Below, one piece after another: positions 1,150 to 42,913 of a DNA stretch of 64,000 bases. The stretch is from Aptenodytes patagonicus. Its lineage: Eukaryota > Chordata > Aves > Sphenisciformes > Spheniscidae. The translations under genes and the position numbers were made by a program. Position 1 is the first letter of the stretch; each line of letters starts with the position of its first letter. The notes below the pieces were generated by a model. That model saw nothing but the letters and a program-made list of their open reading frames with translations. It did not search any database and had not been told where the DNA came from. Location of the stretch: assembly GCF_965638725.1 (NCBI RefSeq), contig NC_134951.1:3596001-3660000 (forward strand), written 5' to 3'.

Positions 1150-1300
1150 GCAACGTCCACGGTATTAAATTTCCACCAAAACAAGGTGAATGCTTCTTAA
1201 CTGCGTGGGACCGGGGATGGTCTTTGGCCCATGCTATCTCCCAGTCTGGGCCTGGGACTTACTTGGCCTAGACCAAAGCCAGACCTGGGACTGTGCTGTG
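1150..1300 (-). repeat. Unnamed dispersed repeat, copy A
   Basis: Read on the - strand this stretch has the order 'gagatagcatgggccaaag', 'accatcccc', then 'ttttggtggaaattt' and 'gtggacgttgcc'. The same order of diverged blocks appears on the + strand near 4.15, 8.65 and 15.3 kb. It is old and heavily mutated. I do not recognise the family; a DNA transposon or an old non-LTR fragment are both possible. Confidence 0.4.
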
Positions 1301-4129
1301 TAACAGAGTATATAGACCAGTTACCCCATAGCCTGTGCCCTATTGCTGATTAATTTGCCGTTCTCAGCATAACCACTTTGCTGGATTCAGGGAGAAGAAA
1401 AAGCTGGAGCCTAAGAGGAAAGCAAGGAACACGATGAAGAGGCTGGAGAGGGCTGAACCTTGAGGAAGAGGAAAGCTGACTATGGTCAGGCTCTCAAGTG
1501 CCGGAGGGGTTGTGAATCAGTGCAGGAATGCCTCCCCGAGGAAATGTTACCACATGCAAACGGGGGGTTCCTTGCCTACCCCCCCCCCGCCCCCCAAACT
1601 TGGCCCTCTTGGAAAAAATTCTAGGGGGAGAGATTTATTCACAACTCTGGGACTGGGGACATTCAACACGTCCGGGGGTAGTGGTCTGGATTTCTCCTGG
1701 CTGCGTTGGAGGGGCAAATGTCTTAAAACTCCCCAACACAATAACATTACAAGATGCACCATATGTCCTTTTGGGATTCAAAATCCACTGCATCAGCTAC
1801 TTCACTGAACCTCTGCTCTTCCCAGACTCTCTCTCTTTTTTTTCTCCCTGTCATTTTGCTTTCCACCTTCAAGGACGAGTTTAGTTCACTTCCTTTTCCC
1901 CTGGAAATAGCCACTAATGGGAGCCAGGAGTTTTCTAATGGGGCACCTGATCTTGGCTCTGGCTTCCCAAAGCCTCTTGCAGAGCCCAAAGACCCTGCAC
2001 GATCACAAAAGGAGCCACTGCAGAGGGATGAGGTGCGAGCTTCTGCTGGAGCTCCCAGGGTGGGAGCCCTGCGACCGAGTTTGAGATCTGCAGCACAGTG
2101 CCCACCTGGATGTCCTCTACAACAGAGGTGGGGAAGGTGGAGTTGTTCCTCAAGGAGATGAAAGGAAATAGAGGGCTGAGCTCATGTGGTCTGGGATGAG
2201 CCATTTGCCCATTGTGTCTCCCCAGGGTGGGGGGAAGCTGAGAGGAGACCAGCACCCCAAGACCAGCAGGAGAAGAAATAACCCAAAATGTGCACTTCTG
2301 ATGCAGTTTTCATCTGAGCATTCAGTGATTTGTTACACCTATAGCATGGTGGCTAGTGCGCCAGATCCAGACCATTGGACGGCCTCAGCTCAGGCCCCTT
2401 TTGGGTAAGGCAATAGGGGATGCCTTTAGCCCAGCACATGAAAACCAACCTCCCAGCCTATGCACAGCCCAGCACCGACAGCCTCCTCTACCCCATCACA
2501 AGTCCCACACCTGGGCTCCCTGCAAAGCACCATCTGACCTCTGCAGCCTGGTCATCCCCAGGTTCATCCCACATACACTAAAGACCTTCCCAAGGTGTCT
2601 AAGTAAGGCGTGTCACAACCTTTGGGTCTTCCCTGCCAATGGAAAGGAAAAGATGCCTCCAGAGAGGTTTTACGTAAAAAGCATGGGATGGTTAGCTCAA
2701 AATCCAGGCCATAGCAGGCAGATGTTTTTTCAGAGAGGGATTACAATTTGCATCGTGTGTAAATACAGGCAGAAAAGTCCGTGGTGGTCTGAGAGCTGCC
2801 CCAGGCTGGGAAAAGCCCAGGAGGGAAGAGTTTGTTAGAGCTGTGGTTGCTGGGGACACCAGGAGCAGTCATGCTCCGCTATGCTCTGGGCAAAATGTCT
2901 GGGAGTGCAGCCCGGCAGAACAAGTCTGGTAGGGTTGCTGGCATATTCATACCGGTGTGATTGGTATGAAATCATGCCCTCACCCTACCTCCCAGTGAGC
3001 TGCTGAAGAGCTTCCCTGTTTTGTAACAAAGATGACAACATCCATCCATCCCCTGCCAAATAGGGATCTGAGTGCGGAGGGTAAACATCCCTGCGCTTCC
3101 CTGAGGCCAGCAGGCAAGAGGGGGTCCTGCCCACTGCTCCTGCCGGTGCAGGATGAAATGGTGCTCACCCTTACGCGTGCCTGTGGTTCGCTGCAGCAAA
3201 CACCTTTACTCAACACACATGTAATTGCAATACTGAGGTTTGTGAGAATTTGCTCCTTTGTAAGACTGGCTCAAGGGACTACCGTTTAGCTCAGGCAACG
3301 TGGCTTTGGGCTCTGGTCTCAGGTTCTGTCCAGACACTTTCCTTGTGATGTCTTTGTCCCAACCTTTTCAAAGTATACTTACACCACATCAGAAGTGAAA
3401 AGTTAAATAAAAACCTGAGACTTCAGTCCTTTGCATGACAGCAAAAAATATTGCTGCTGATTTTACTTGTATCTTATATTTCTTTGGACTTACATACGTT
3501 CTTGGGCATCAGGTCTAGATACAGATTCTCCATCACAGTAGTATTAATCTAGAGTAATGAGATTACAGTTGAAGGACCTACTATGGTTTTACACCATTGA
3601 AATTAATCCAGAATTCAACCCCTCACTTGACGTTGAGTATTATAATCATGTTGGGTATGACAGTCTGGCCAGGAGTGAGAAATTGGCTTTGTAGTTTTGC
3701 AGAAAACCTGGCTATGCCACCGCTGCAAATCCCAGTGCAGATGGATTCTTCCCAGTGAACAAGGGTAGCCTTTACATTTTTCTTCTTCCAAAACCACTGT
3801 CTCGATTCGTTAACCCTCCACCTCTGCTGCTGTAGGCATGTCACCGCCTTGCCCACCTCTGACTCTTCACTGAAGTGGCCCATCAATTCTTTAATGAGAG
3901 GTGTGAAGATTCTTAATGGGGCATTTTCTACACACTTCCAGTAGTGGAGTCCCCCAGGGATGACCAGGAATGCACTGGTAAATATAAGGAGTGAATTAGC
4001 CCTAAAGTGTGTCTGAGTGTGTGTACGGATGACCAGACCACTTACTTGAGACACTGGCAACTTTGGCTACTGCTGTAACTGATGTCAAGTCCCTGACATG
4101 GTTTCAGCATGACCTTGCGCCACTCTCAC
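1301..4129. other. Gene-free stretch
   Basis: No exon that I recognise. There is a C-rich tract at 1579-1594 (ten C, then g, then C again). Open frames up to 160 codons (for example 2356-2838 +) have no family resemblance, and several overlap in different frames, so I treat them as chance. Confidence 0.5.
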
Positions 4130-4250
4130 AAACAATTTCCAGGTGTGGATCAGGAGTTAGCACAGGACCACCCTGTTTTGAAGGCTGAATTTGACAGTAT
4201 GGACATGGCCAAACTGGGTCGATCAAGGCGTAGAGAATGGACAAGGCACT
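4130..4250 (+). repeat. Unnamed dispersed repeat, copy B
   Basis: Contains 'caggagttagcacaggacca', then 'ttttgaaggctgaatttga' and 'gtatggacatggcc', in the same order as the copies near 1.2 kb (reverse), 8.65 kb and 15.3 kb. An overlapping 101-codon open frame (4109-4414) is probably a by-product of this repeat. Confidence 0.45.
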
Positions 4251-4695
4251 GTTTGATTTACAGATATTGCAATAAACTTTTTAATGTTGCCTCTGTTGGT
4301 TGTGGCTTTGTTGGACATGAATATATGGGTATCTTGAGGGCTTTACCCTGCAAGAGCCCGAGTTTGCATTGTCTTAGCGGTTTCAGAGCAGGCAAAACCA
4401 CTTTAGTACTTTGAAGTATCTGCATTGTTATAGCCATTTATAAACATCATCAGGCAGTTTGTTTCTTTCTCGCCCCCACTAGCTGCCAAGAAATAGAACT
4501 AATACTTCCCTTGTTTGCGTATGAGATAACAGAGTCGCTTCACGCCATTGGGTGTGCCCGATGTGTACTCAGCACAGCTCTGAGTACTGATGGGCAGTCA
4601 CCTTTGACTGTGGAGCTTGGTGTGAACTTCCTTAAAGCTTCCCTTACACCTAGTGTTGGGAAGAACACCTGCAGCTGGGGGCTTGTCCTGGGCTC
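4251..4695. other. Gene-free stretch
   Basis: Nothing recognised between the dispersed repeat and the old CR1 copy. Confidence 0.5.
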
Positions 4696-5300
4696 TTCAC
4701 AGATTCACGGAGTGATGCAGTTCAGAAGGGACCTTAGGAGGTCTCTGGTCCAACCCCGCATTCAAAGCAGGGTAAGTCTGAAGTTAGACCCAACTATATA
4801 ACATATATGTATAACATATTGCTCAGGGTCATACTCAGCTATGTTTTGAGTATCTCCAAGGATGGAGATCCCCCAACAACTCTGGGTACCTCCTCCAATT
4901 TTTTGTCTTCATGGTGGATTTCCCCACCCCCCTGCCCCCTAATGCCTAACTGGGATTTCTGTTCTTGCAAAGTCCATTGCCTCTTTTCCTTTCACCGTGG
5001 ACATCCAAGGAGAATCTGACTCTACCTCCTCTATACTCTCCCATCAGCTAGCTGAAGACAGCAGTAAGATCCCCTTATAGGATCTCTGCTTATGGCTGAA
5101 CAAACCCCGTTCCCTCAGCCTCTGCTTGTAAATCCTGTGCTTTAACCACGTTGGTGACCTTCTGCCTGACTCTCTCCAGTTTATCAACCTCCTCCTTGTG
5201 GAAAAGGCCAAAATTGGGAAGCCCAAAACCAGATACAGTATTCTGGATGTGTCTTACAAGTACCAAATACTTCCATACAAAGGAGAATAGGTCTTCTGTA
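4696..5300 (-). mobile_element. Old CR1 LINE fragment
   Basis: Diverged CR1 3' part in reverse orientation. It opens with 'tcacagattcacggagtg' followed by the degraded 'gaccttaggaggtctctggtcc' region, then the usual CR1 landmarks in order: a 'ccaaggatggagatccc' block, 'cccgttccctcagcctctgc' near 5107-5126 and 'agcccaaaaccagatacag' near 5221. These encode, on the - strand, the end of the CR1 reverse-transcriptase ORF, here broken by stops. Older than the copies at 7.0 and 9.2 kb. Confidence 0.8.
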
Positions 5301-7000
5301 ACACTATTACACTCTTCTGTTGCACTCTATTACACTCCAGAAGGTGTAATAAGGATTATTCTCCTCTTGGGCTGGTATTCCATCCATCTCCTTGGTATTT
5401 TGCAATTCTTTCTTACTTGAACTGATGCATGTAAGGCAGGAATCAGATCTAAGCTAAGAGAGAGGTGAGGATGATCCCTTTCTCCTTCATGCCTCCATTG
5501 AGAACAAGAAGGACGGAGCAAGTGATGAGAGAAACCAGCAGCAAAGCCACATCAAAACAATTCAGCAGGAGATGTCCACATAACAGTTGAGTGAAAAAAC
5601 AGTTATCTGCCTATCATCTCCTGCACTGGATGGAAAGAGGAGAGGGAATGGTACTATGGCACCGTGTTGTTTTGCATGATATGCTGGTTGGCTTCCCATC
5701 TCACTCACCTTTTGGAGGTGGTCCATGTCCACCACATGGCCAAAGAGAGATAATTTGTACTGATGCCGGAGTAAACCTGTTTGCCCACTGGTGTTTTTAG
5801 GGTACCTATGAAATGAAATTAAGATGCCACTAATGCATAACTCAACACAGAGCTGGTGCCTGTGCCTGAATAGTACTTGGACCCTCCCTCCTGCCAGGCC
5901 CTAAGCATCGTATTGAAGGTGCAGAGCAGAGCTGAAGAGAATGTACTAATCTGTTCTGGATTAGATCCTGCACGGGGAAGCCTGAGACATTAGGTATTTT
6001 GATGCTTACAGAGCTGTTTAATCATAAGATAATGCACAGCCTGTTCACACAAATTAGGGTGGGTCCCGTTTGCATAATGTTGATTTCAGAGGCAAATTAA
6101 TCTCACAGACAACTTGTTTCTACTGCAGCTTTTAACCATTCAGCACATTCGATACGGGATCAGATCTCAGTCTGATGAAATTGTTGCAGGGTGGATTTTG
6201 AAAGGAAGGAGGAAAAGGGAAGCACAACCAAAAAGGTAGGTGGACTTTACTGAATAATTGCTCCTGGATTGCCAGGTTTAGGCAGAATTTAGCCAAGGCT
6301 TTATAACTTGAAGGGGATCTTTGCTTCTTGCTGACCCTTCTGATCAGCGGATGTTTAATAATAACTCATTCCTTATTTGTTTTCCAAATAATCATCTTCA
6401 ATCATGGATCAAACATCCACCTCCAACCCTCCCGTGCTTCTTGCCCTACAGATCTCACAATCTGACTACCTTCCTTACAAAAATGCATCCATTCATTACT
6501 TTTCCAACACTACACAGGATCAGAGCGCCAGTTTTCAAGCATTCCCTTTGAAATAAAAATCTATTCAGGACATCCACTGCTTCTTAACAAATTAATTAAA
6601 TTTTAATTAAACATCACTAAGAAATTAAATTTCCCTTTGCAGTCAGCTGGGTAGGGAAGGGCCATGGGGCATTCTGATGATGTTACAGCTCTTCTCAGCT
6701 TTCAAAGGGGAGGGATCTATGCCGATTCATTCATAATCAGCCCATTGAATAATGCATGGGATGTTAAAGACAGACTGAAGTCCTGAGAAGGAGCCAGAGT
6801 GTACTTCCACAACTCTTTTTTTTTTTTGGAGGGGAGGAGAGGAGAGGGAAATTTAAAAAAATCTCATTTCAACTTAAGAAGCCAGGATGGAAAATGCAGC
6901 TTTGAGTACTTTGTGAGTTCCTGACAAACATTTGGAGGTGCATTTTTTTGGCTATTTCAGAAACTGCCTTCTGGGCTCTCACTCTATTACTACCTTTTAG
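5301..7000. other. Gene-free stretch, part AT-rich
   Basis: No gene seen. The stretch 5960-6180 (TA-rich, with 'taatgcacagcctgttcac' and 'gtttgcataatgttgattt') has the texture of a conserved noncoding element, but this cannot be tested without alignment. A short T-run lies at 6823-6833. Confidence 0.45.
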
Positions 7001-7563
7001 AATCATAGAATCATAGAATCATTAAGGTTGGAAAAGACCTTTAAGGTCATCGAGTCCAACCGTCAACCCAACACCACCATGCCCACTAAACCATGTCCCT
7101 AAGCGCCTCATCTACACGTCTTTTAAATACCTCCAGGGATGGGGACTCCACCACTTCCCTGGGCAGCCTCTTCCAATGTTTAACCACTCTTTCAGTAAAG
7201 ACATTTTTCCTCACATCCAATCTAAACCTCCCCTGGTGCAACTTGAGGCCGTTTCCTCTCATCCTATCGCTTGTTACCTGGAAGAAGAGACCGACCCCCA
7301 CCTCGCTACAACCTCCTTTCAGGTGGTTGTAGAGAGCGATGAGGTCTCCCCTCAGCCTCCTTTTCTCCAGGCTAAACAACCCCAGTTCCCTCAGCCGCTC
7401 CTCATCAGACTTGTTCTCCAGACCCCTCACCAGCCTCGTTGCCCTTCTCTGGACACGCTCCAGCACCTCGACGTCCTTCTTGTAGTGAGGGGCCCAAAAC
7501 TGAACACAGGGTTCGAGGTGCGGCCTCACCAGTGCCGAGTACAGGGGCACGATCACTTCCCTT
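7001..7563 (-). mobile_element. CR1 LINE, 5'-truncated, about 560 bp
   Basis: Young-looking CR1 in reverse orientation. Its 3' end is at 7001 with the repeated 'aatcatagaatcatagaatc' tail. On the - strand 7556-7086 keeps an open frame of 156 codons covering the last part of the CR1 reverse-transcriptase ORF2, with the blocks [43 protein letters not shown]-like text and [11 protein letters not shown]. The element lacks the endonuclease and most of the RT, so it is dead. Confidence 0.95.
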
Positions 7564-8639
7564 TTCTCCCATCTTTCACTGTGGCAGAAGTACTAATAAT
7601 TGAAAACAAGTCCTGAGACAGCTTGCACTCTCACACAACCCCCACAAGCCCAGTGAAGGAGGAAATCAGAGATGTGGGCTGCTGAGACAGAGAGAGGAAG
7701 CTATGGGAGATCAGGAGCAATGAGACATTGAGAGTTGTAGGGCTCTGAAGAGGACTTGCTCTCATATTACCTCTTCAAGCCTAGAAATTGTCCCTGCTTA
7801 GAAGGGGTTTTTTAACAGAAACCCTGAGGTTAATGGCTGTAACCACGGTGTATGGCTTTGATTAAATCATAATTTTAAGCCACCCTAAATTACTTTGTAT
7901 TCAGAATGCAGAAAGGCTCTTCCTGCCTTGCCCCAGTGCAGGACATCTCCAGTGTGAGGGGCTGGAGAAGCAAAGCCAGCTGAAGCACAGAAAGATCTAA
8001 GCTTGGCAGCAGCCAACATCTAAATGAATTGGGATGAAAAAGCACGTGACTGAGTAGTGGAAACACAACCTTTCTGGTTCAGTCCCTGACCTTTACTGTC
8101 TTTCTGCAAAGAAAAGGCAGGACAATACGTCTCTGGGATGAAGCTCATTTTAACTGAGGGTTTGAAGGAAGAGGTGGAGGTGTAGAGTTAGGAGCAGGCT
8201 GTGCTCTCCCTCTCGCCCTACCCTTGGGAGCAGCAAACGGAGGTGGCAGCAAAACAGTGGGTGGTTGGTGGTGCAGAGTGGAGAATGGAGGCAAGCACAG
8301 AGGTCTTCTGTCTATGGCCAAGACACCAAGAAAGAAGGAGTCTGTACAAGACCCATAAAGGTCCACAAGGGCCATTTGGCCTGAGACCAAAAGTCTGGTG
8401 AGAGAGCAGCGGGCTCAGATGTGTCCCGCAAGTGAAATGTCTTTGGTGGACAAGTGCAGGAGGGATTGAGGAGAGCTTGGAGTGTGGAAGAGAAAAGGGT
8501 GCTTGTGACCGCCGGCAAGAAGGACCTACCAAAACCTTCTCTTGAAATGTAAGTCCTCTCCTCACCATTAAATGGTAGTTGTAATCTTTGGCAAATTTTT
8601 TGGTCCGAGCCATTTAATGCACCCCAACCTATTCCCAGG
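7564..8639. other. Gene-free stretch
   Basis: No gene recognised. Open frames on the - strand (8145-8920) overlap in three phases and have no domain resemblance. Confidence 0.5.
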
Positions 8640-8800
8640 CACAGGTCAGGAGTCAACACAGACCAAGGACCATTCCCAAGAGACATTTTGGGTGGGGACA
8701 CATGATTTTGGAGGCTGAATAAGTAAAGGCATGGCCAGATGGTGCCCACTGGCACGAGGGTGAGACAGTCAGTGCTGTTGCAGTTTTGTTTCATAGCACA
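8640..8800 (+). repeat. Unnamed dispersed repeat, copy C
   Basis: Contains 'acaggtcaggagtcaacac', 'accaaggaccattccc', then 'attttggaggctgaataag' and 'aggcatggccagatgg', the same block order as copies B (4.15 kb) and D (15.3 kb) and the reverse of copy A (1.2 kb). Confidence 0.45.
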
Positions 8801-9232
8801 GGTGTAGCCAGAGATGTGTCCCAGTCCAGGACACAGCCAGCAGAGGAGTGTCCATGTTGCCTGGGGTATTACTACGGCCACCCAATAGCTCCCTGCAGCC
8901 CATCCTTCCTCTTGACCCATTGCTGAAACAAAACGATTGGCACTGGTTACCTCTACCCAGCTCTGGCTCTCCCCTGGGAACTATATTCCTGCTTTTTAAG
9001 ATGTGAATAGGAATAGCCCACTCCCATCTATCTTGCAGCATGGTTTCAGCTTGTTCCTCCAAGGTTTCCCGCAATTCCCCACTTACGCCACAACTTCTCC
9101 CTGCTGTTACCCTGCGTGGGGCATGTTTTCCAGCCACCTCCCTCCATACTGCACTACAGCCATTCCCCACACAGTGCTGTGCTGAACTACAAACCATGAG
9201 GAGATTTAAACACCAAAGGGATCAACTTCTCT
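8801..9232. other. Gene-free stretch
   Basis: Nothing recognised. Short overlapping open frames only. Confidence 0.5.
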
Positions 9233-9562
9233 CATAGAATCATAGAATCATAGAATCATAGAATCATTGAGGTTGGAAAAGACCTCTAAGATCATCGAGT
9301 CCAACCGTCAACCCAACACCACCATGTCCACTAAACCATGTCCCTAAGCGCCTCATCTACACGTCTTTTAAATACCTCCAGGGATGGGGACTCCACCACT
9401 TCCCTGGGCAGCCTGTTCCAATGTTTCACCACTCTTTCAGTAAAGAAATTTTTCCTTACATCCAATCTAAACCTCCCCTGGCGCAACTTGAGGCCATTTC
9501 CTCTCGTCCTATCGCTTGTTACTTCGGAGAAAAGACCAACACCCACCTCGCTACAACCTCCT
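9233..9562 (-). mobile_element. CR1 LINE, 5'-truncated, about 330 bp
   Basis: CR1 in reverse orientation with four tandem copies of the 3' tail unit at 9233-9266, then the standard 3' region ('atgtccctaagcgcctcatc', 'ccctgggcagcctgttccaa'). On the - strand 9546-9331 is an open 71-codon piece of the ORF2 C-terminus. Same subfamily as the copies at 7.0, 10.4, 16.0, 16.4, 41.1 and 43.0 kb. Confidence 0.95.
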
Positions 9563-10413
9563 CATCCTTCTTTTCATAACTAAGCAATTTCAGTCACTTT
9601 CATCCTCTCTGGGTTTACACCACTACATCAGCATCAGCTTCTGGCTGGACCAAAGGCCAGACTCCGCCTTGAAAGCCCGAGAAGATGCCAGCTCCTCATC
9701 AGGCTTCCAACAGTTTGTATTAGAAGTGCATTAAAATGTATTAAATACACGTTCTTCGTGCCTTAAACATATTAAATACAAGTTCTTTGTTTCCTTTGAG
9801 AGGAAAAGGGTGTCACAGAGAATTTGGACCTTAGCAGACCCACGGGCTGCGCTCCATCTTCTCAGCTGCTTCTGCATAGGTACATAGAAAGGCTCGAGTC
9901 TCCTGCTGACAGCTACCAGTAAGTTGTGTGACCGCAGCCCAAAGAGCCTAAACATTAAGTAACTTAAGCAGCTGCAGGGAGCTCGGAACTTTCACCATCA
10001 GCTTGAGATCTCTTTCCGCTACAGCTGAGCTTTGGTGTCCCCTCAGCCTGTTTCTTCCCTGCAGGTCTCAGGGTGGAAATCACAACACCTCATTCCGTTT
10101 TGCATGGTGCTGCAATAAATCTAGGGTAACTGCGTTTTGGCGGCGCTACCTCACATTGACATGCGTGTGATTAGGTGCTAAAAGGGTGCAAGAAAGGGGT
10201 GGAGTAAGCTACATCTGGTGGGCCTGAGCTTACATGGAAGCAAATGAGAAGTAGTTGCACTGAACCTCAGGGGGTTGCACTCAGTGAAACCAGCATGTGG
10301 TTGAAGAAAGGCCATATCCTAACATTAATATGTTAACTCAGTATTTCAGCCTCCCGGATCCCCTGTTTGTAAAGTGCTTGGGGTGATGGACTTTTTTCTT
10401 GTTGTTCTGCATT
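9563..10413. other. Gene-free stretch
   Basis: No gene recognised; no clear repeat. Confidence 0.5.
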
Positions 10414-10635
10414 TCATAGAATAGAATCATAGAATCATTAAGGTTGGAAAAGACCTCTATGATCATCGAGTCCAACCGTCGACCCAACACCACCATGCCC
10501 ACTAAACCATGTCCCTAAGCGCCTCATCTACACGTCTTTTAAATACCTCCAGGGATGGGGACTCAACCCCTTCCCTGGGCAGCCTGGTCCAATGTTTAAC
10601 CACTCTTTCAGTAAAGACATTTTTCCTCATGTCCA
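10414..10635 (-). mobile_element. CR1 LINE, 5'-truncated, about 220 bp
   Basis: Reverse-orientation CR1: tail at 10414, then the standard 3' blocks up to the '..cctcatgtcca' break at 10635. It carries 'gactcaaccccttccctggg' like the copy at 16.4 kb, where the 7.0- and 9.2-kb copies have 'gactccaccacttcc', which suggests two source variants. Confidence 0.95.
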
Positions 10636-12398
10636 AGAGAAGCTGGCATGGGGCATTGCTGGGCCCTGGCTGAAGTCCTCTGGCAGTTCAGTGATGATAA
10701 CGCTACTTACACAGGCAATAAAACACTGGTGGTGAAGCTGGGTCTTGTCTACGCTGCTCCAGGCTCTTCGTGTGTTGTTGGGATTCACTGAACCGCAGGA
10801 AGCATGCTGGAGCCAGCTAAATCCAACCTCACTGCTCTTGTTCCCCTTTCTACCTTATGGAGAATACATTGAAGAATGGAGTATGAATGAAGGGCACTTT
10901 TACAAAGGACAAGTTGTCTTATTTTAAAATAGATGTCTAAAAAATCCTGACCGTCTCTGGAGGAGCTCAGCCCTCCCCTTTGACTAGAGGAAACCTAAAT
11001 AAATTAGCTCAGTTTTGGATTTTTAGGCTATGCCTCTACCAGCACATTAGGGAGTCCCAAGGCACCAGTGCTGGGGCACCATCGTCCGCTCTGTTAAATA
11101 GTGCAGACCTTGGCATGGTTTTTGCTTGGCCAACCAGCACTGACCCAGGCAATTCCCGTGCACGTTTTGGGAGTTTGCACTGATCAGGGCGATTCCCAAT
11201 AGGCAATGTAGGTGTACCACCCTAATAAGATATTTAATATTATGATTATTTGGGCAGGGAATGGACATAGTGTTATTTAGATAACTGATGGAGATACAAC
11301 TCTGAGTGCCTAAATTTAGGTGGGATAAATAGCACCCTACATTTTTTCTGTGATTCTAAGATGGATGCTGAGGCTTATCTTGCCATTTTCACTACAAGGG
11401 CATTCACTGGTGCTGTGAACGGGGCTGTGCATAAATTAGAAGCAGGGGGTGGATCTCTGGCCTTCAGTTCCCCTGAAATAATATTAACAGTAATTATAAT
11501 AACAAACAGTGGTGATGGATTCTTTCTCCTCTTGCTTCCCCAGATGTTGTGCCTGTTTCAGTGCTAAGCACTGCAGACCTGTACAGGGTTGTATTGCCCT
11601 GTGCACCTTGAACAAATACTGCTCCCAAGACTGTGGCTGACATTTGTGTGTCACTGTGATGTTGATAACACACACATTTCATCTCCTCCTTGTCCTGCTG
11701 AGAAATGTGTGCAAAGCTGCAGGATTTGGGGACTTACATATTACATGTTTTTTCCTGTGTAATTGCGCAAAGGGTGTAGACTCCACTTTTATATATGAAC
11801 CTATATTTGCAAAAAAGTTGATGGGGTAGTCAGGCACTTTGTGCAATAATAACCTGTTCCCATTCATCCCACAAGACCCTTGAAAGATTTTCATGCCTGG
11901 GCAGGATGAGGTGTACACAGTCAATTCCGGGTCTCACCCCCCACCCAACACCATTCCCATGACATGACTCATTTGTGGACATCAAGCCTGAAGAAAGTCC
12001 AGGAGATGTGCCTGCAAGTGAGATCAGTGCGCAGCAGGCTCCTACGTCCTCATGTAATTAAGCTCTTTCAGATATTTCCCATCAAAAAGCATCAAGGGAA
12101 CGGTGTACTTAATCACCACAACAGTTTATTCAACACTGCTTCGCCTCAGTTTTCCCAGTGGGCTTGGCTGTGCTTTTGCCATGTGTGGCTGTGGATATTC
12201 CTTCCGAGCCAAATATTTTCATGCTAACAATTTTATCTCCCCAGGCTCAGCCTGTTACTACAGACATTTCTCCCAAAAGACACCAATCTCTCTCCAACTC
12301 ATTCCTGTCACCTTGGAGGAAACTAACACCAGCGTGGGTTCACCAGCTCTTTAGGATTTTGCAGAGAATAATGGATGCTCCCAGTTCCCTTAAGGGAG
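10636..12398. other. Gene-free stretch
   Basis: No gene recognised. Short open frames overlap in several phases. Some AT-rich text at 11220-11250 and 11480-11510. Confidence 0.5.
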
Positions 12399-12545
12399 GG
12401 ATTATCATTCCGGTACTGCAGACAGGTTGGCCAGAGCTCACCAAGGTTAAGGGACTTGGCGAAGGGCATGCAGTGATTTGGTGGCAGAAGCAAAATTGCA
12501 GAGTCCTGACTCACTCCATTCATAATTACTGTCTGCCATTAACAA
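12399..12545 (+). repeat. MIR-like old SINE fragment
   Basis: The order 'caaggttaagggacttggcg', 'agggcatgcagtgatttggt', 'ggcagaagcaaaattgcaga', then 'gtcctgactc' follows the MIR core and 3' part (gaggttaagtgacttgcccaa... as known from the family). Diverged; family known, assignment by eye. Confidence 0.6.
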
Positions 12546-12992
12546 AACTCAGACTGTAGGGTTAGAAAGCAGATCCCCGTTTCCCTCCAGCCTCCAAACA
12601 TATGTAACCCCCGCACCTGATTTTTAGAAATATTCCCTAATTCTAGAGATGTCATTTTGCAGCTTGGCTGAAAGGTACAATCAAAGCAGCAACAAACGAT
12701 CGGACAATCTGAATTGTTCTCTCAGTTCAGGTTTTCATAATACTTTCTTCAGTAAGTAAGTTTTTTTTCAGAAAGCTGCCTTTCTGAAAAAAAAAAAAAA
12801 ATTTCCATAAAATTCTTTGCTTTTTAATATGTAAAATGTCTTCTCTGATAGTTTTGCTTTGTTTAATTGAAAACAGTAATCTATCAATCTTATATATTTA
12901 TTGAAAAATCTCATATTTTTAGTCAATAAAAAAATTGTTCACCTGAATATAGTAAATGTTTAAGTAGAGAGTGCTTAAAGAGGCTTTATAAC
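12546..12992. other. AT-rich gene-free stretch with a perfect hairpin
   Basis: A perfect inverted repeat sits at 12761-12794: 15-bp arms (T-run plus cagaaag, and its complement) around the 4-base loop ctgc. The rest, to 12990, is AT-rich with no gene. Confidence 0.6.
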
Positions 12993-13350
12993 CATAGAAT
13001 CATAGAATAGTTTGGGTGGGAAGGGACCTCTAAAGGTCATCTAGTCCAACCCCCCTGCCGTGGGCAGGGACATCTGCAACTAGAGCAGGTTGCTCAGAGC
13101 CCCGTCCAGCCTGACCTGGAATGTTTCCAGGGATGGGGCATCCACCACCTCTCTGGGCAACCTGGGCCAGTGTCTCACCACCCTTACTTTAAAAAAATCT
13201 TCCTTATGTCCAACCTAAATCTACCCTCTTTCAGTTAAAAATCGTTGCCTCTTGTCCTGTCACTACAGACCTTGGTAAAAAGCTTCCTTCCGTCTTTCTT
13301 AGAAGCCCCTTTATATATTGAAAGGCTGCAATTAGGTCTCCCTGGAGCCC
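12993..13350 (-). mobile_element. CR1 LINE, second subfamily
   Basis: Tail 'catagaatcatagaatag' at 12993, then 'tttgggtgggaagggacctc' and 'tagtccaacccccctgccgt', a CR1 3' end different from the 7.0-kb type and the same as the short copy at 39.45 kb. Reverse orientation; open text near 13235-13417 on the - strand is a decayed ORF2 end. Confidence 0.9.
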
Positions 13351-13864
13351 TCTGATCATTTTTGCCTCCAGTTACCTCTTCGCAGGCTGGGAAGTGATTG
13401 TGTGACAGAAACCCCATCTCTTCCTAGCTCTGTGGTGTGATCCTATTCCTCTAAACACTGGCGGGCTTTAAGATTAGGAATACTTTTTATTTAATTTCCT
13501 CTCACTCCCCCTCAGATATTTCCCGTTCAGACAGGATGTGGTGGGAACAGTCTTCAATATTAGAAGACGGTCCCATCAGAAATGTTGGGGTGGGCTGTGA
13601 TCATTTGGTCTCAAAGAGTTTATGAGACAGATGTCCCAGTAATACCTTTTTCTCTATTGTCCATAAATAGAGTCTAACTCTCAAGCCAATGTCTGCTTTA
13701 TAGACATTAGGGATGAGATTCAGCTCACCTACCTCTAGCTGTCTCCACTGAGATCAAATGCCACTCCCAAACTTCGGGAGATAAACAGCCTACCTGTTCA
13801 GGTTCTTTCCTTCCTCCCAGATAACTCCAATCCTTTGTAACACCTTTCAGTGCAGAAAGCACCC
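13351..13864. other. Gene-free stretch
   Basis: Nothing recognised. Confidence 0.5.
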
Positions 13865-13980
13865 CCGATTTACAGGCTGAGAAACGAGGATAAGAGGGAT
13901 GGCTTTGATTTGCCCAGAGTCCCGCAGCAGGTTATGGCATGACTGGGAAGCAGCACCCGAGAGCCTGGCCCATCCTGAGT
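13865..13980 (+). repeat. MIR-like old SINE fragment
   Basis: 'gatttacaggctgagaaacg', 'gatttgcccagagtcccgca', 'gcaggttatggcatgactgg' and 'agcctgg' follow the MIR core layout. Diverged, assigned by eye. Confidence 0.55.
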
Positions 13981-15249
13981 AATTGTGCGTCATGCAGATG
14001 TCATGCTGTGAGGAGCTCACCTCAAAGCCCGTCTTGCAGACCACGCACCACTAACAGGTCTTGCCCGTGTAGATGCTCTTGTGTCCAGCAGTGCAGTTGC
14101 GTGCGTTCTGTGGCCATAACCTCAGAAAGGAGAAGTATTATGGCATCTGAATTCAATGAGCATCATCGAAATTATCTGAGCTTCACGTCTTTGGGATCTC
14201 TTCCATGCCCTCAGATGGGATTGAAACTGGCCAAAAGTCTTAGAAATAACGGAGAAGGGGGCAATAGATGCGGATAAATAGTGTGATTGCAAAGGTCGCA
14301 TTTCCATAGCACTTCAGGCTTTTTCTATTTTTTTAAAGCTGAGAGTTTTTGCTAAACCAGAAAAGCTCGGAGTTGGGCATTTTATATGTTCATTATGTTC
14401 TCTTTAATCTATTAAAACTAAATAGGCCTTCAAACTGGTAGAATCTGATGATGAGCATGAAACCTAAAAAAAACCCCAGCAAATGGAAAGAAATTAGTAC
14501 AGTGCATGAAAAAAATATATTTAATTTTCTACTTTCTATGGATGTTCCGGGGGAGCTTGGCTATTGGTATGAAAGATGTTATTTTTAAAAAAATACGCAT
14601 CATGACTTTAAAAAAAATCAAACATTCTCACTCTGACTGGTCAGTCATCACTTTTATTTTTCCTTTATGCACGTGGGCCATTAAGGAGGAAAGCAAAGTG
14701 AAAAAGTTGTATAAAACACATTTTCTTTTTTAGTGTGTTTAAGGGAAACTAAAGTAAACCTAGAATTTTCATTAAGTTTCTTTTTTTTTTTCCCCTTAGA
14801 AGGATGTTTTCTGCAAGGAAATCATCAATGGAAAATGTTTGACCAGCTGTACTGTTATCTTTAGATCTGGAAACACATGCAATACATGGAAATCCCCACC
14901 TCACTTGAAGTTTCAAGGAGGTGACTGGATTTTGTGCTCATATGTCTTTCGAAATGAGTGTTTCAGTATTTGCTTTTGTTTGCTATCCATCCACTCCAGT
15001 CCAAGGAAAAATACAGGAAAATTTCCCCTTTTGACATTACAGTGCATGATCACTGTGCAGGGATCTGCAAAGTCCACGCCTGTTGATTTTTTTGCAGTCC
15101 CTTGAACAAGGCCTCGGTCTTGGCTCCTTCTTTCGTCTTCAGGGAATTTTAATCTGGAGATTAACTTCCAGCTTGCAGGAAATAACAGAGACGACCTGGA
15201 TATATCTCGATATGGACTGGCCATCAGAGCTCAGTCATTTGCACTGTTG
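13981..15249. other. Gene-free stretch, AT-rich in the middle
   Basis: No gene recognised. At 14783-14804 a T-rich run followed by ccccttag, then an open frame to 15105, looks like an acceptor plus exon, but the peptide resembles nothing I know and no donor follows cleanly. Confidence 0.4.
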
Positions 15250-15470
15250 TTAGCATAGTCCTTGGCTTCGTTTTGGCCGGAGCCTGCTGGCCCAGACCCA
15301 GTTGATCCCCAGCTATAGGTCAGGAGCTAGCATAGTCCAAGGACCATTCCTGGTAGGTTGTTTAGATGCAGCCACCTTGCTCTGGAGAGAGTTTAGCTGT
15401 ATGGACTTCACCAGACCAGGCCATCAAGGCAGAGCAAGGGCACCGGTCCTGCTTAGTCTGCCTGTAAACA
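15250..15470 (+). repeat. Unnamed dispersed repeat, copy D
   Basis: Best-preserved copy. Blocks in order: 'ctggcccagacccagttgat', 'ggtcaggagctagcatagtc', 'caaggaccattcctggtagg', 'gatgcagccacc', 'gagagagtttagctgtatgg', 'cttcaccagaccaggcc'. The same order recurs in copies A (reverse), B and C. Confidence 0.5.
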
Positions 15471-16040
15471 ACTATTTAGGTTCATCATGGACTGGTTTTC
15501 TTTCTCTGAGGTTAATGACTCAAGTGCAACTTTGTACCATGGAGCGAAGTAGCAGAAGGTTCTTGTCCTTTGGTAAATGTTGTCCTACCAAAATCCTTGT
15601 CCATCTGCTTTACTTGTCAAAATCCTCTAGGCAGAGGGTACCAGGTTATCCTGGAGAATCCTTAAACAAGAACTGGTTTAAGAGTTCTTTGGAAACAGCA
15701 GCCTCCCATCCTCTCTCCAGCTCAGGTAGGAATTGAAGGAAATAAAATAATAATAATAATAAAGGGGAATAAGAGGTTAAGTTACGTTTTCCAGCTGAGT
15801 GAACATCACAGCAATAGCTGCATTTTTTTGTTTGTTTTTTCAAAAACAGTACCATAATAGTGTGTGTTGGTAACTGCAGGGTTGTTGTAGGCTCATTTAG
15901 GCCTGCATTCACTCACCTTTGGGCACCCAGCTAAGGTTCCTAAAGGATTTTAGCTGACTAGTCTCTCTCTGGAGTCCACGGAAAGAGGTGGTCTCCTCTG
16001 GAAAGCTAGGAAGAACTCAAAGCAGGAGGATCACCCTTGG
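15471..16040. other. Gene-free stretch
   Basis: A short simple (ATA)n-like stretch lies near 15745-15760. Nothing else recognised. Confidence 0.5.
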
Positions 16041-16165
16041 AATCATAGAATCATAGAATCATTGAGGTTGGAAAAGAACTCCAAGATCATCGAGTCCAAC
16101 CGTCAACCCAACACCACCATGTCCACTAAACCATGTCCCTAAGCGCCTCATCTACACGTCTTTTA
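16041..16165 (-). mobile_element. Short CR1 3' end, about 125 bp
   Basis: Reverse-orientation CR1 tail and 3' end, cut off after 'cctcatctacacgtctttta'. It is followed by about 205 bp of unrelated DNA and then another complete CR1 3' end at 16371. Both have their own tail, so they are separate insertions. Confidence 0.95.
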
Positions 16166-16370
16166 CGTGTTACACGTTCAGGATGAGATGAACACAGCCT
16201 AAAAGACACCATATCTTTCTGGTGACTCTGAAGGAAGCCTGGAGTGACTGTCTCAAGTAGAGACATTACAGATATCCACATCCAGCCCAAAGTACCCAGC
16301 CCAGCTAGGATATATTTGTCCCACGGTGCCCAGGCATTGGCTGATCCTTGTCCCTGCTCCCTGGTTGCAC

Positions 16371-16646
16371 ATAGAATCATTAAGGTTGGAAAAGACCTCT
16401 AAGATCATCGAGTCCAACCGTCAACCCAACACCACCATGTCCACTAAACCATGTCCCTAAGTGCTTCATCTACACGTCTTTTAAATACTTCCAGGGATGG
16501 GGACTCAACCCCTTCCCTGGGCAGCCTGGTCCAATGTTTAACCACTCTTTCAGTAAAGACATTTTTCCTCACGTCCAATCTAAACCTCCCCTGGCACAAC
16601 TTGAGGCCATTTCCTCTTGTCCTATCGCTTGTTACTTGGGAGAAGA
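16371..16646 (-). mobile_element. CR1 LINE, 5'-truncated, about 275 bp
   Basis: Reverse-orientation CR1 with a shortened tail ('atagaatcattaaggttgg') and 3' region up to 'cgcttgttacttgggagaag'. It shares the 'ctcaaccccttccc' variant with the copy at 10.4 kb. Confidence 0.95.
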
Positions 16647-18289
16647 AGGGGTACCATCCTGGAGAAAGTATACACAACACTGGAAGACCCAGGAAAGAAG
16701 CTGGATATAGCAGTAACACACACGCACACACCCCATACTGAGAGATACCGTTGGTGCAGCACTTGGAGCAGACTAAAGGGGTTGGAGATGGCTCCAGCCC
16801 CCTGCCACCAATTCACTCTCCGACCTTTCTACCTCTTCATTTTTCACCTATGAGACTAAGGGTGAGGATGAGATATGGGACTTGTCTTTGATAGAAAGAG
16901 ATTTGGTTTTGTTTGCAATCCAGAGCTGTTGAGTTTGGAATTCCTTTGTCCCTCTGGTTTTTTTTTTTGCCAAGCTTCAATAGTGGAAACTAATCTGTCT
17001 GAGGGTGACTTCTAATTCCTGATCACTGCACCTCCTGCCTATGTCCTACAAGGGGACTGTAGTGCAAAATCCTGCTGTTCTTCCAGGAGAACGGCACCCT
17101 CAGCAGGAGTGGCAGGTGCAGAAAGCCTGTAATATTTGGCTTTTCTTCATACAGTCTAGACTGGATTGCCACCTCTGGTTTTATTTCATACCCCAGCCAT
17201 GAAATGTTGATAATGCTTAGGAAAGAAAAAAATCACATGTGCAAATAATAAAAAAAAAGAAACCCCAAAACCCCAGACGTACACACACACACACACACAC
17301 ACACGCAGACCTGCTTCGGCTTGCATTACAGGTTCTCAGCCCGGGAGCAAATCACTTGGGAAATTTAATTAAACTTTAATGAGGTACTTTGATTGCTGGG
17401 CCGTACGCCTAGTGGAATTAACGTACAATGAAGGGGCGTCTCGTCATGCTGCTGGCAATAGCTGGCAAGTTCATGTAGAGCAGAGCATGTCATCCTAAAT
17501 CACCTTTTGAACTCGGGAAAGCAGCAGGGAAGAACAACCAGGAAGCTCTAATGGGTCATTTATTTACAGCAGGTCCTTTACACGTGAATCCTGTACATTG
17601 AAGGAACTCCCTCTAAGTCGCTTTTGGGACTTTTCAGGAGGTTGGGGAATGGAAGGCAGGCAGGGCGGCGGTGGTGGTCTGGGTTGTAGGTTTCCTTCTC
17701 TTCTTTCCCTTGAGTAGGCAGGAGCCTGGGTTGGAGGGAGCTCTGGCATGGGAGATCCTGGGAGAGCAGGGACCTCCATGGAACCTCCACGGGACCTTGG
17801 TGCACAGCTAACCACTAACCAGAGAAAGGCACTATTTTGTTGCTAGTGGAGATGTGGCTTCTGTTTCAAGTGAAGGGCCTATTCAAGCCCTCCTCAGCCA
17901 CCAGGGAAAGGCTGTTTTGTAATGTAATGCTGGTTTGGAGAGGGCCGTTCAACCTCAGGAGAGTTCCACCTCCTTCTGCCTCAAAGCTAGGCCTCCATCT
18001 TGGAAAAGAACTGTCATAGAACCTATATGGGATCTCCATACATCCCTTACAACCTCAACATTTCTGTGGGAAGCTGCTGCACCAGGCTGGGCTTGACCAT
18101 CACCCACCGTTGGCTTACGGGATCCCAGAGGGACTGGGACACTGTGCATTCACCAAGGTACGTTACCACACAAGACCCCTTATGGAAAGGATCCCTTTTT
18201 GAAAGGGAAAGCCCTCTCTAGGCATCCAGGAAGGTGAGTCCCATGTGCTGGGAGAGAAGAGAGTTGCAAGGTTTACAAAGGAGAAGCAT
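16647..18289. other. Gene-free stretch with a CA microsatellite
   Basis: A (CA)n run lies at about 17280-17305. Next to it 17340-17420 (with 'aatttaattaaactttaatg') has the look of a conserved noncoding block, untested. No exon was found, although upstream exons of the C8orf74-like gene would be expected on the + strand here. Confidence 0.5.
17280..17305. repeat. (CA)n microsatellite
   Basis: Twelve or so uninterrupted ca units, ending in acgc. Confidence 0.95.
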
Positions 18290-18660
18290 GATAATTCAGG
18301 TTGGAAGGCACCTCTGGAGATTTCCAGTCAAACCCCCACCCAGCTCAAAGCAGGGCAAATTAAAGCAGGTTACTCAGGACCTTGGTGAGTTGCGCTGTCA
18401 CTGTCTCCAGGGATAAAGATCCCATGTCCACCGTGGGACCTTGTCCTCAGGCTTAACTACTTCCAGAATTTCACTTGCTGCAACTTGTGTTCATTGCATT
18501 TTATCCTTTTCTGCACACCTCTCACAAAAGACTCTCTGTCTTCTCTACAGCCCGCCATTAGGTAGCTGAAAGCAGCAATAAGATATTCTCCAAGCCTTGC
18601 CTTCTCCAACATGAGCTAACCTCCAACCTGAGATCTCAGGCTCTCCCCATACATGTGTTT
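18290..18660 (-). mobile_element. Old CR1 fragment
   Basis: Diverged CR1 3' part in reverse orientation: 'ataattcaggttggaaggca', 'cctctgg', 'ccacccagctcaaagcaggg', 'ctgtctccagggataaagat', 'ctacttccagaatttcactt', then degraded ORF2 text to about 18655. It ends about 115 bp before the C8orf74-like exon. Confidence 0.75.
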
Positions 18661-18775
18661 CAAGAGGATTACCTGAAAAGATAACCCTCTGCTTGGACCT
18701 GTGTCAGTTTGTCAGCAAGAAGGAACTCTAAAAAGAGAAGCCCCAACCTTCCTGCATTTCTGTTTGCCCCTTTAG

Positions 18776-18930
18776 AGATTGGAGGATTCATGAAAGAGGT
18801 GATCAGTGGCAAGGTAGAATCCTTGCGTGAGATTTTCTAGGCTGAGATCCAGACCACCTTTGAGATCCTGGAGCTGAGACTGCAGAAGAAGACACTAGCC
18901 TTGAAGTCATCTCTTTCAAGGCAACCCTAG
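18776..18930 (+). pseudogene. C8orf74-like last exon with an in-frame stop
   Basis: A pyrimidine-rich stretch and cag-like acceptor (tgtttgcccctttag, AG at 18774-18775) precede an exon whose frame (first two bases AG complete a codon) runs to TAG at 18928. The peptide starts IGGFMKEVISGKVESLREIF, then a TAG at 18838-18840, then AEIQTTFEILELRLQKKTLA and about ten more residues. From memory, the C-terminal region of human C8orf74 has matching text (QIQNTFAILDLKLQKKTL), and the two align without gaps over about 45 residues, with Gln where this copy has the stop (CAG to TAG would suffice). The + orientation facing SOX7 fits human 8p23.1. No other exon was found upstream in the window. It may be a pseudogene, a gene ending about 29 residues early, or a sequencing error. 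The protein's biochemical role is unknown to me. Confidence 0.7.
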
Positions 18931-30190: not shown

Positions 30191-31089
30191 CTAGGAGACG
30201 CTGTAGTTATTGTAGTAGGTGGCCGTGGCATCGGCAAGGACAGAGATGAGGCTGGTCTCGGAGGTGTGGGAGCCACCAGCCGCCGGGACATGTCCATTGA
30301 CCAAGACCCCGCCGTGGTGGTCGCCGTGGCTGGGGTTGTTGAGATACTGGTCAAACTCATTGCGGTCCATCTCCCCCAGGAGCTCAGCTTGGCTCAGCTG
30401 GTCCAAGGTGTCAAAGCCATGGTGGTCAGGCGGCGGGGAGAGCTGGCCCAGGTGGGCATGGAGGCTGGGGGGGTGCAGGGAGGGGAAGGCAGGCGTGTAG
30501 TAGCTGGGAGGAGGAGGAGGAGGAAGGGGAGGGCAGCTGGAGGCTGGGGGGATCATGCAGGTGGTGGGCTGCGGCATGGGGCTGAGAGGGTGGTGGTTGC
30601 ACGGAAGGGAGCTGCCCGCGTACTCCGGGGAGTAGGTGGCTCCAGCAAGGTGGGAACGGTGATGCTCATCGGGGCAGGGTGAGGAGAAGAAGCTCTGCTC
30701 GCGGTCTATGGCGTCCAGCGGAGACATCTCCGGGGGGGTGGGCAGCCCGTAGGGGTAGGTGTCCACGCTGGTGCTGCTGCCGCTGCCCGGGGCCTCCCGG
30801 TATCCCCGGACGGACGGCAGCCCTGGGCGAGGCGGGTACTCACCCGGCCCCTCTTTCTCCCCACTGGCCCGGCTGCAGGTCTGCTTCTCCGGCACCACGT
30901 TTTGGTCCCGCGTCAGGCTGCCCAGCAAAAACCCGGGGTCCACCCGCTTGCAGATCCGCTTGACCTGCTTCTTCCGCCGGGGCCGGTATTTGTAGTTGGG
31001 ATAATCTTGCATGTGCTTCACCCGCAGCCGCTCGGCCTCCTCCACGTAGGGTCGCTTCTGCGAGAGGCTCAGAGCCTTCCAGGACTTGC
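30191..31089 (-). CDS. SOX7: SOX7, coding exon 2 (residues 76-374)
   Basis: Second and last coding exon of the SOXF-group HMG-box transcription factor SOX7, a nuclear DNA-binding protein acting in endothelial and endoderm development. The acceptor cag is at 31092-31090, and the exon opens by completing Gly76 and then KSWKALSLSQKRPYVEEAER, the second half of the HMG box (box about residues 41-119, ending in the basic KYRPRRKK). Next come a Pro-rich middle (VDTYPYGLPTPPEMSPLD at 184-201 and a proline run at 262-270), the SOXF beta-catenin-binding motif DRNEFDQYL at 317-325, and the conserved C-terminus ending ATYYNNYSVS. Stop TAG is at 30193-30191. Total length of 374 residues compares with about 388 in human. 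No frameshift or stop is seen. The identity rests on near-complete HMG-box match and both C-terminal motifs. Confidence 0.97.
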
Positions 31090-33135
31090 CTGAAACGGAG
31101 GACAAAACTCCCCTTAGTGCCCACGGCAGCTGTACCGGGGCGGGAAAGGGGGCCGCCACCCAAAGCTTGCAGGCACACAACCCAAGAGCAAGGTAGGGGC
31201 TCCCAATATCCGAGCCGGCACACATGGAAGACGCAGCCCGCAAACCCCGCAGGAGAACAGGATGGCAGTGAGAGGGCGAAGAAGGGGGGTATTGAAGCCA
31301 CCGTAGGTCCACCAACTCCCCCCATCCCAAGTCCCCAAACAGGGCGGGTTCAGGGTTAGCTGAGCCCCACTGCAAACAAATCAGGGCAAATAGACTCTCC
31401 CAGCTCCACGGTCTGGTCTTGCAACGCCTCTCTGGGACGGAGAGCCCAGCTGCCGAGCGGGGACAGCTGAGGCCATGCCCGGCTGAGCAGGGGGTCAGGA
31501 CGTGGCGTCCCTGGATGCGGCCCAGCCTGTGCCCTGCCGGGACTCGCACCGGGGCGTACGGAGACCCGGGTGCCGCGACCTCGCTGCTTCGTGTTTGAGA
31601 AACACAAAATGCCCCCAAGACACAGGACAGAGAAGCAGCACCGGGGCGCGGGCTTGTATCCCACAGTGAGGCTACCCCAGGCTGTTCCTCAGGGTAGGGG
31701 GAGAAATGAGGATACGGATCAAAGTGTTTGATGCCTTCCCATTGCCAAAGAGACAGCAGAAATAACACTCATAAGCTGAGATGCTGCATGGCAAAGCAGC
31801 GAGGAGAAAACCCAAACCACCAAAGAAAACACCGCAAAGCTGTCCAGGGAAACACAAACTTTGGGTAAGAGGTTGGACAGCAAAGCTGTGTTGCAATTCA
31901 GGCAGCTCTTTCTCAGGCTGTCTGGGCTGGTTATTTCTGTTTGCCCTCTTGGTTTTGCATAAAAAACGGGGATTGGGGTAAGGGGGAAACAGGGGGTGGG
32001 GAGTGGGAAACAAATGTGTATTCAAAATGGGTTGTGATCCCCCAAAAGAAACAGCTGAACCACCACCCCCTGGACACGCAATATCGGGGCGGGCTAGTAA
32101 GTTTGGGGACAAAGTGGAACAGCGAAGACAGGTCAGGAAAATTTGGGGGTCCCTCCTTGAACTGCATTGGGGGATCCCAGGCACTGGCAGCCCGGGGGGT
32201 TTGCACCCCAGCAGGGTTTACACCTGAGGGGTGGCAGGGTGTGCACATGGGTGCCTGTCCCCTGGGGCGTGAAAGACCATCAGGCTTTGCACCCTGAGGG
32301 GTGGGCGGGTGGGTGCATGCACCCAGAGTGTGGGTCACCGCTGGGGTTTGCACCCCGTGGGGTGGCGGGTTGGGTGCATGGGTGCCTCCTCCTTGGGGTG
32401 CGGGACCCCGTCAGGCTTTGCACCCCACAAGGCAGCCCGGTGGATGTTGTCCCAGGGCGCTGGACCCAGGAAGGCTTTGCACCCCGCAGCGTGTCCTTGT
32501 GGGTGCACAGGTGCCCACCCCCCGTGTGCCGGACCTGCCTGTATCCCATGGGGCGGCCGGGAGGATGCACGCACCCCAGGGTGCCGCTGCCAGACCCGGG
32601 CAGGGCTTGGACCCCGCGGGGTGGCAGGGAGGGAGCATGGGTCCCCACCCGGACAGGGTTTGCACCCCCGGGGATGGCCGATGGGTGCATGGGTGCCCAC
32701 CCCGGGGTACTGAATCCGGAGAGGGTTTGCACCCCCGGGGATGGCCGATGGGTGCATGGGTGCCCAATCCGGGGTACTGAATCCGGAGAGGGTTTGCACC
32801 CCCGGGGATGGCCGATGGGTGCATGGGTGCCCACTCCGGGGTACTGAATCCGGAGAGGGTTTGCACCCCCGGGGATGGCCGATGGGTGCATGGGTGCCCA
32901 CCCCGGGGTACTGAATCCGGAGAGGGTTTGCACCCCCGGGGATGGCCGATGGGTGCCCACCCCGGGGTACTGAATCCGGAGAGGGTTTGCACCCCCGGGG
33001 ATGGCCGGGGTGGGCGCACGCACCGCAGGGTGCCAGAGTCGGAGCAAGGTTTGCACCCCCGGAGATGGCCGGGTGGATGCACGGACGCCCACCCCCGAGT
33101 CGCAGCCCCAAACCCCGCACCCCTCCCCTCCTCAC
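31090..33135 (-). other. SOX7: SOX7 intron (2,046 bp), GT-AG, phase 1
   Basis: The single intron splits the codon for Gly76 within the HMG box. The position matches the intron known in SOXF genes (after KMLG). Donor is g|gtgag at 33136/33135 and acceptor is tttcag at 31090. Its upstream half (32190-33095) is a minisatellite that leaves long accidental open frames on both strands. Confidence 0.9.
32190..33095. repeat. Intronic GC-rich minisatellite, about 14 units
   Basis: The landmark 'tttgcacccc' recurs near 32200, 32217, 32285, 32346, 32417, 32475, (32539, 32607 diverged), 32658, 32725, 32792, 32859, 32926, 32985 and 33050. From 32656 to 32924 the spacing is exactly 67 bp and units are almost identical ('gggtactgaatccggagagg' in each). 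The next unit is 59 bp, having lost 8 bp, and the outer units differ in length and sequence. This gradient is typical of a minisatellite homogenised in its core. Confidence 0.95.
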
Positions 33136-33361
33136 CGAGCATCTTGCTGAGCTCCGCGTTGTGCAGGTCGGGGTTTTGCACGGCCAGGCGCTTCCTCTCG
33201 TCCTTCGCCCACACCATGAAAGCGTTCATGGGCCGGCGGATGCGGCTTTCGGAGCCTTTCTCCCCCGGCGGACAACGGGGGGGCGGCCCCGGCGGCAGCC
33301 CCTCGGCCGGGTCCCCCTCCAGCCGCTCCGGCCAGGGGTAGGTGCTCAGCAGCGCAGCCAT
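33136..33361 (-). CDS. SOX7: SOX7, coding exon 1 (residues 1-76)
   Basis: First coding exon. It begins ATGG at 33361 in a strong start context (gggccATGG) and encodes [20 protein letters not shown], a short proline-rich linker, then the start of the HMG box at [20 protein letters not shown] and on to ELSKMLG. The residues of the RPMNAFMVW core that contact and bend DNA in the family are intact. The frame stays open upstream of this Met to about 33604, but the N-terminal MA-LL-YPWPE text matches the start known for SOX7, and the extension does not, so I place the start here. It is spliced to the exon at 31089 with one base of Gly76 at the end (donor gtgag). Confidence 0.97.
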
Positions 33362-42307: not shown

Positions 42308-42913
42308 TTAAATGTGCTTGCAGTGCTTCTTTTTCTTTCTCTGCGCTCCTTCCATACACTCATCTGCCTCCTCTTTTTGCTTTTTGTGTTTCTTCTTACG
42401 GCGTTTCTTTTGCTTTGCCTCATAGTCCTTTCTGCTGAGATCTTCCCCATCAGATATTCCCGTGTAAATTTCTCCATTGCCCATATTTTCATCACAAGTA
42501 ACGCTTTCCCCTTCGTGCTGCTCTTTATGTTTCCTTTTCTTTTTCCCTGAGTGACACTCATTTAATGGAGCATCCAGTTCCTTTCCGTTCAAGCTACCTA
42601 TCTTAGATTGTTTCACTTTTGGTTTCTCACAATACTCTGTACTCTCTGCCTCATCTCTCTTCTGCTTCTTCTTTTTCTTTTTGACTTTGGTTTTCAGTTC
42701 TTCTGAAGGCTCCAAAGCTTCGTCAGCTGTTGGGCAGGAATTGTCCACCTCTGTTTCTGTTTTGTTCTGGGATCCCTTCAGTTTTGCCATGCGCTTTGCG
42801 AAATATTCCTGTACAGTGAGAACACTCTTCACTGTATTGTAACCGTCTGCAGGCTCAGAGAGCCAGCGGTTTCTCTTCTTCTCTTCCTGAGACTCGGGAA
42901 CGGTATTATCCTC
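42308..42913 (-). CDS. PINX1: PINX1, last coding exon
   Basis: Final coding exon (201 codons plus TAA at 42310-42308) of the PIN2/TERF1-interacting telomerase inhibitor, a nucleolar protein that binds TERT and TERF1 and acts in rRNA processing. The acceptor is cacctgcag with the exon starting at 42913 in phase 0. The peptide starts EDNTVPESQEEKKRNRWLSE and contains SVLTVQEYFAKRMAKLKGSQ, matching the FTIQEYFAKRMAALK segment I know from human PINX1. The rest is a Lys/Glu-rich tail with runs KKKKKKQK, KKKRKHK and KQKKRRKKKHKK, as expected for the nucleolar-targeting, telomerase-inhibiting C-terminus. The N-terminal G-patch exons were not found and should lie beyond 64 kb. Identity rests mainly on the QEYFAKRM block and the neighbouring SOX7. 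Confidence 0.9.
   Translation of the reverse strand, partial: EDNTVPESQEEKKRNRWLSEPADGYNTVKSVLTVQEYFAKRMAKLKGSQNKTETEVDNSCPTADEALEPSEELKTKVKKKKKKQKRDEAESTEYCEKPKVKQSKIGSLNGKELDAPLNECHSGKKKRKHKEQHEGESVTCDENMGNGEIYTGISDGEDLSRKDYEAKQKKRRKKKHKKQKEEADECMEGAQRKKKKHCKHI

Follow-up and report, generated by a model that had tools for sequence, protein, structure and literature searches.

What is a C8orf74-like exon with a stop codon in its middle doing in the genome of Aptenodytes patagonicus: does it belong to a working gene, or is it what a lost one left behind? We looked at this locus in the 64,000-nucleotide stretch of DNA that contains it (the window, to which all positions refer; Table 1). As argued below, this exon is probably a decaying remnant of the 3' end of C8orf74, which would have lost its function in this lineage and become a unitary pseudogene.

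Homology of the exon to the C-terminus of C8orf74

Translation of the window confirmed the exon-like stretch, its frame and the in-frame stop, all of which had been claimed from the letters of the sequence. The plus-strand frame 18778-18930 is made of 20 codons, a TAG, 29 codons and a terminal TAG at 18928-18930, and reads IGGFMKEVISGKVESLREIF, stop, AEIQTTFEILELRLQKKTLALKSSLSRQP, stop. Codons are readable from 18778, and the two leading bases would finish a codon interrupted by an intron in phase 1. The internal TAG had been described as replacing a glutamine; the TAG is indeed there, and the glutamine opposite it is that of the presumed human sequence. Provided that the exon starts at 18776, this TAG is a disabling lesion at the C8orf74 locus. 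It is the single stop in about 50 codons, with 0 indels relative to the presumed human protein.

Table 1. Positions of the features discussed in the text
Feature	Position	Strand	Basis or remark
C8orf74-like last exon, presumed remnant	18776..18930	+	tblastn vs presumed human protein, controls, translation
Internal in-frame TAG	18838-18840	+	faces glutamine of presumed human C8orf74
Best-conserved stretch AEIQTTFEILELRLQKKTLALK, 3' of internal TAG	18841..18906	+	15/22 identical to presumed human protein
Splice acceptor (3'): pyrimidine tract and its AG (18774-18775)	18746..18775	+	hand-made weights
SOX7	30191..33238	-	Pfam
SOX7 HMG box, intron-split	33128-33238 + 30989-31102	-	Pfam, coordinates converted from residue ranges
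SOX7 Sox17_18_mid domain	30650-30802	-	Pfam
PINX1 last-exon part, VQEYFAKRMAKLK motif	42308..42913	-	tblastn with presumed human PINX1
Six dispersed repeat copies, CR1-like 3' ends	6996..16655 (6996-7297, 9241-9542, 10412-10713, 12985-13201, 16036-16165, 16354-16655)	- (presumed)	in stretch searched for upstream exons

A presumed sequence of human C8orf74 was compared with the 64 kb window by tblastn, with filters and composition correction off. Its C-terminus aligned to the exon without gaps (40.0 bits, E 3e-6), and this was the only significant match, the runner-up reaching 24.6 bits. None of 500 shuffled proteins reached 40 bits (the top one scored 28.9), and the best score on the reversed window was 22.7. 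The gapless alignment to the human C-terminus proposed in the original prediction thus holds, the similarity to C8orf74 on which it depended is significant, and, judging from these controls, this similarity is beyond chance.

Because the reference was a presumed sequence, it was itself checked against Pfam, the PDB and a published primer. It passes the curated cut-off of the Pfam CLAMP family (PF14769; 32.8 vs 22.7 bits, E 9.8e-8) and matches the PDB chains of CFAP119 (E 1.6e-6), FAP119 (1.9e-4) and FAP114 (2.9e-3), which supports its CLAMP part. One frame of a human C8orf74 primer given in PMC3757027 reads AILDL where the presumed sequence has DILDL, in support of the C-terminal motif of the match. 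With A in place of D the exon match is 38.9 bits (E 6.9e-6); the identity counts around the stop given below use D. At 18860, in the reading frame that the protein alignment uses, 13 of the 18 primer bases match; over both strands of the window five sites score 13 or more, 18860 included, and the match carries weight only because its place was predicted. The reverse primer of the pair reads RASKG in one frame, a loose likeness to the presumed human tail. As for the exon peptide, it matched no Pfam family and, even at E 10, no PDB entry, and we thus place it nearer to C8orf74 than to CFAP119. No C8orf74 orthologue was found in the viral contigs, prokaryote genome contigs and plasmids that were searched.

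Conservation on either side of the stop

When the two sides of the TAG were compared with the presumed human protein, 3 of 20 residues were identical (11 positive) 5' of the stop and 15 of 22 (18 positive) 3' of it, a difference in identity with a Fisher p of 0.0007 if residues are taken as independent. It had been stated that conservation past the stop equals or exceeds that before it, and these counts bear this out. The 20 pre-stop codons, in register, score 16. Of 57,764 stop-free placements, 26 score as high, and of the 127,880 placements of any kind in the window, 33 do, self included in both cases. The post-stop stretch scores 70, attained by itself alone among 127,868 placements. On these counts the pre-stop stretch is also above chance in its register. 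A protein made from a transcript of this exon would, because of the TAG, lack its best-conserved segment.

A very recent loss had been put forward to account for the good conservation after the stop. When the window sequence itself was put through simulated neutral evolution at 0.20 substitutions/site, a mean of 15.0 of the 22 residues remained unchanged, and one or more new stops arose in the 29 codons with a probability of 48%. As the simulation keeps about as many residues as the exon does, a very recent loss is not required. The data are compatible with an old one, up to about 0.20 neutral substitutions/site, a figure that pools human differences predating the loss with later changes and is given as substitutions, with no rate applied to turn it into years.

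The acceptor of the exon looks intact: the AG ending at 18775 is outscored by 1.35% of all AGs, both strands counted, and the nearest AG upstream is 35 nt away. The scoring weights were hand-made and calibrated on the PINX1 acceptor rather than that of SOX7; the PINX1 acceptor is better than that at 18775, with 0.16% of AGs above it.

Neighbouring genes and the search for upstream exons

SOX7 and PINX1 both lie downstream of the C8orf74-like exon and on the opposite strand. The name SOX7, over other SOXF genes, is assumed, mainly from the neighbourhood. PINX1 was recognised by a single tblastn match of the presumed human protein (32.0 bits, E 0.001), and its exon part matches no Pfam family. 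Gene order and strands agree with those presumed for the human C8orf74/SOX7/PINX1 region on chromosome 8. The expected strand and the SOX7 neighbour named in the original prediction were therefore found, with PINX1 further downstream. In human, the three genes have been reported near one another (PMC3757027). The SOX7 intron between the two HMG-box halves holds a minisatellite at 32582-33071 with units of about 67 bp (5.5 copies, 95% matches at 32649-33007), and an exact 28-bp tandem duplication lies at 56503-56559 (2.0 copies, 100% matches). Rfam gave nothing at gathering threshold over the window.

Neither AATAAA nor ATTAAA occurs on the plus strand between 18931 and 28444, that is in 9.5 kb where 2.3 would be expected (p ~0.10). 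An AGTAAA is present at 20714, 3' of the exon. Canonical polyadenylation signals are found about 950 nt past the SOX7 stop and about 545 nt past that of PINX1.

Upstream, the statement that no other exon lies in the preceding 18 kb held at the sensitivity available. The presumed human C8orf74 gave no second exon by tblastn against the window, and windowed local alignment upstream of the exon gave none above controls. Frameshift-tolerant alignment of residues 1-217 reached at best 45, equalled by 69 of 160 shuffled proteins (reversed sequence, 50). An N-terminal-like match at 2037-2120 (+), with 12 of 28 residues identical and one internal stop, has the expected strand and order; we took it as chance because this share of shuffled proteins scores as high. 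A six-frame Pfam scan of positions 1-18,900 with hits allowed up to E 1 gave 0 families, hence neither CLAMP nor the RP1L1 doublecortin domain; recovery of both SOX7 HMG box halves was its positive control, which speaks for a divided HMG box rather than for a divided CLAMP domain.

RP1L1, which we take to be the next gene in human order, thus went undetected in 1-18,900. The locus may therefore extend past the left end of the window, where further exons of the gene may be located. Since the human gene covers about 28 kb (PMC6696953), most of C8orf74 might, in a compact genome, be expected to fit into 18.7 kb.

The stretch searched for upstream exons also contains six dispersed repeat copies (Table 1), and further copies are located at 39.5, 41.1-41.5 and 43.0 kb. 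Their ends presumably resemble those of avian CR1, which points to a bird genome, and their minus strand in the 6996..16655 stretch is likewise an assumption. The repeats at 41079-41396 and 7082-7399 are 95% complementary over 318 nt, which suggests that this family was active fairly recently in the lineage.

A probable relic and its comparison with known genes

Taken together, these results establish that an exon-like stretch homologous to the C8orf74 C-terminus lies beside SOX7 and PINX1, that a TAG interrupts it and that no further exon was recognised in the preceding 18.7 kb. Decay fits best because of the stop, the lack of a detectable upstream exon, the weakly conserved first half and the lack of a nearby canonical polyadenylation signal. 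C8orf74 would have lost its function in this lineage, its last exon staying behind and decaying; the remaining exons would be gone or beyond recognition, and no protein would be made from the locus. The homology with its controls and a stop placed ahead of the most conserved segment speak for loss. Against it stand the lone lesion, the intact-looking acceptor and the missing RP1L1, and the shortage of polyadenylation signals is a matter of p ~0.10 with an AGTAAA nearby. The locus is most likely a relic, and a loss of this type would be an ordinary kind of event. Of what the original prediction had read into the locus, the identity of the gene, its strand and neighbours and the stop within its frame stand and decay is the best fit, while readthrough found no positive support.

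Other readings were weighed against the same observations. A working but shortened gene would have its exons left of the window and a protein ending at 18838, the post-stop sequence being a 3' UTR that resembles old coding sequence. The good acceptor at 18775 and a window edge that may fall inside the gene, no RP1L1 domain having been found in 1-18,900, suit it, but it is unlikely: such a gene would have given up its best-conserved part (compare 15/22 with 3/20), no upstream exon was recognised within 18.7 kb, and 9.5 kb follow without a canonical polyadenylation signal. These last two absences are also left unexplained by a null allele, or a sequencing or assembly error, confined to one codon of a gene that the species otherwise keeps intact; this we find less likely again, although a lone substitution-type lesion, with no indel and a conserved segment 3' of it, is what it would produce.

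The abrupt jump in similarity could also mean that the TAG ends an intron, with the exon starting at 18841 and the earlier similarity due to chance. The jump falls exactly there (Fisher p 0.0007), and the bases at this point are TTTTCTAG, then G. We nevertheless consider this improbable, because the pre-stop half is above chance in its register (26 of 57,764 stop-free placements) and the acceptor is weak: it is outscored by 8.25% of all AGs and has another AG 9 nt before it. The acceptor at 18775 is the better one, with no other AG for 35 nt. An acceptor at 18838-18840 would moreover be out of frame (65 bases) from a donor that fits 18776. It is hardly credible that translational readthrough or RNA editing passes the stop to give a full-length protein. 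The conserved segment, open for 29 codons, would suit it, but this opening is not telling, since about half of the simulated neutral copies also gain no stop at 0.20 substitutions/site, and RNA structure at the stop is ordinary (z -0.94; 34 of 200 shuffles fold as well). The bases after the TAG are not known to form a readthrough motif. Very improbable, too, is an old, lineage-wide stop behind which the sequence is still selected as protein, by readthrough, editing or the 18841 acceptor with a changed donor, so that two forms of C8orf74 would exist.

If the exon is indeed a relic of C8orf74, it can be set beside several known genes. With human C8orf74 it shares the ungapped C-terminal similarity, the strand and the neighbours; it differs by its in-frame stop, by the other exons not found here and by the presumed human tail past KKTL, which is not conserved. 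By Pfam and PDB, the presumed human protein matches CFAP119/CCDC189 and Chlamydomonas FAP119/FAP114, which we take to be members of the CLAMP family in the C1a/C1e part of the central apparatus. A function for C8orf74 would be suggested only by relatives such as CFAP119. The mouse C8orf74 gene presumably carries another name. In the mouse sperm central apparatus, CFAP119 is common to the C1a and C1e projections, and a term search of the main text of that paper returned no C8orf74 (PMC12297659). Human C8orf74 was a candidate in a cancer-testis gene study, where it alone showed no measurable expression in the cancer sets covered (PMC4278308). Its loss in birds is not mentioned in the titles and abstract openings of the open-licence papers found on the gene, nor, among the matches listed, in those on bird gene loss.

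Were the loss real, it would bear on the role of this uncharacterised CFAP119 relative, and, with the locus dead, C8orf74 would join the presumed sperm or cilium genes that are dispensable in some bird lineages. The closest parallel is STK33, a possible spermatogenesis gene reduced to remnants with premature stops: mere remnants are reported in 28 of 28 neognath birds analysed, whereas the gene is present in three palaeognaths (PMC4509753). The difference is one of extent, the loss of STK33 being shown in 28 species with large deletions and that of C8orf74 resting here on one locus and one stop.
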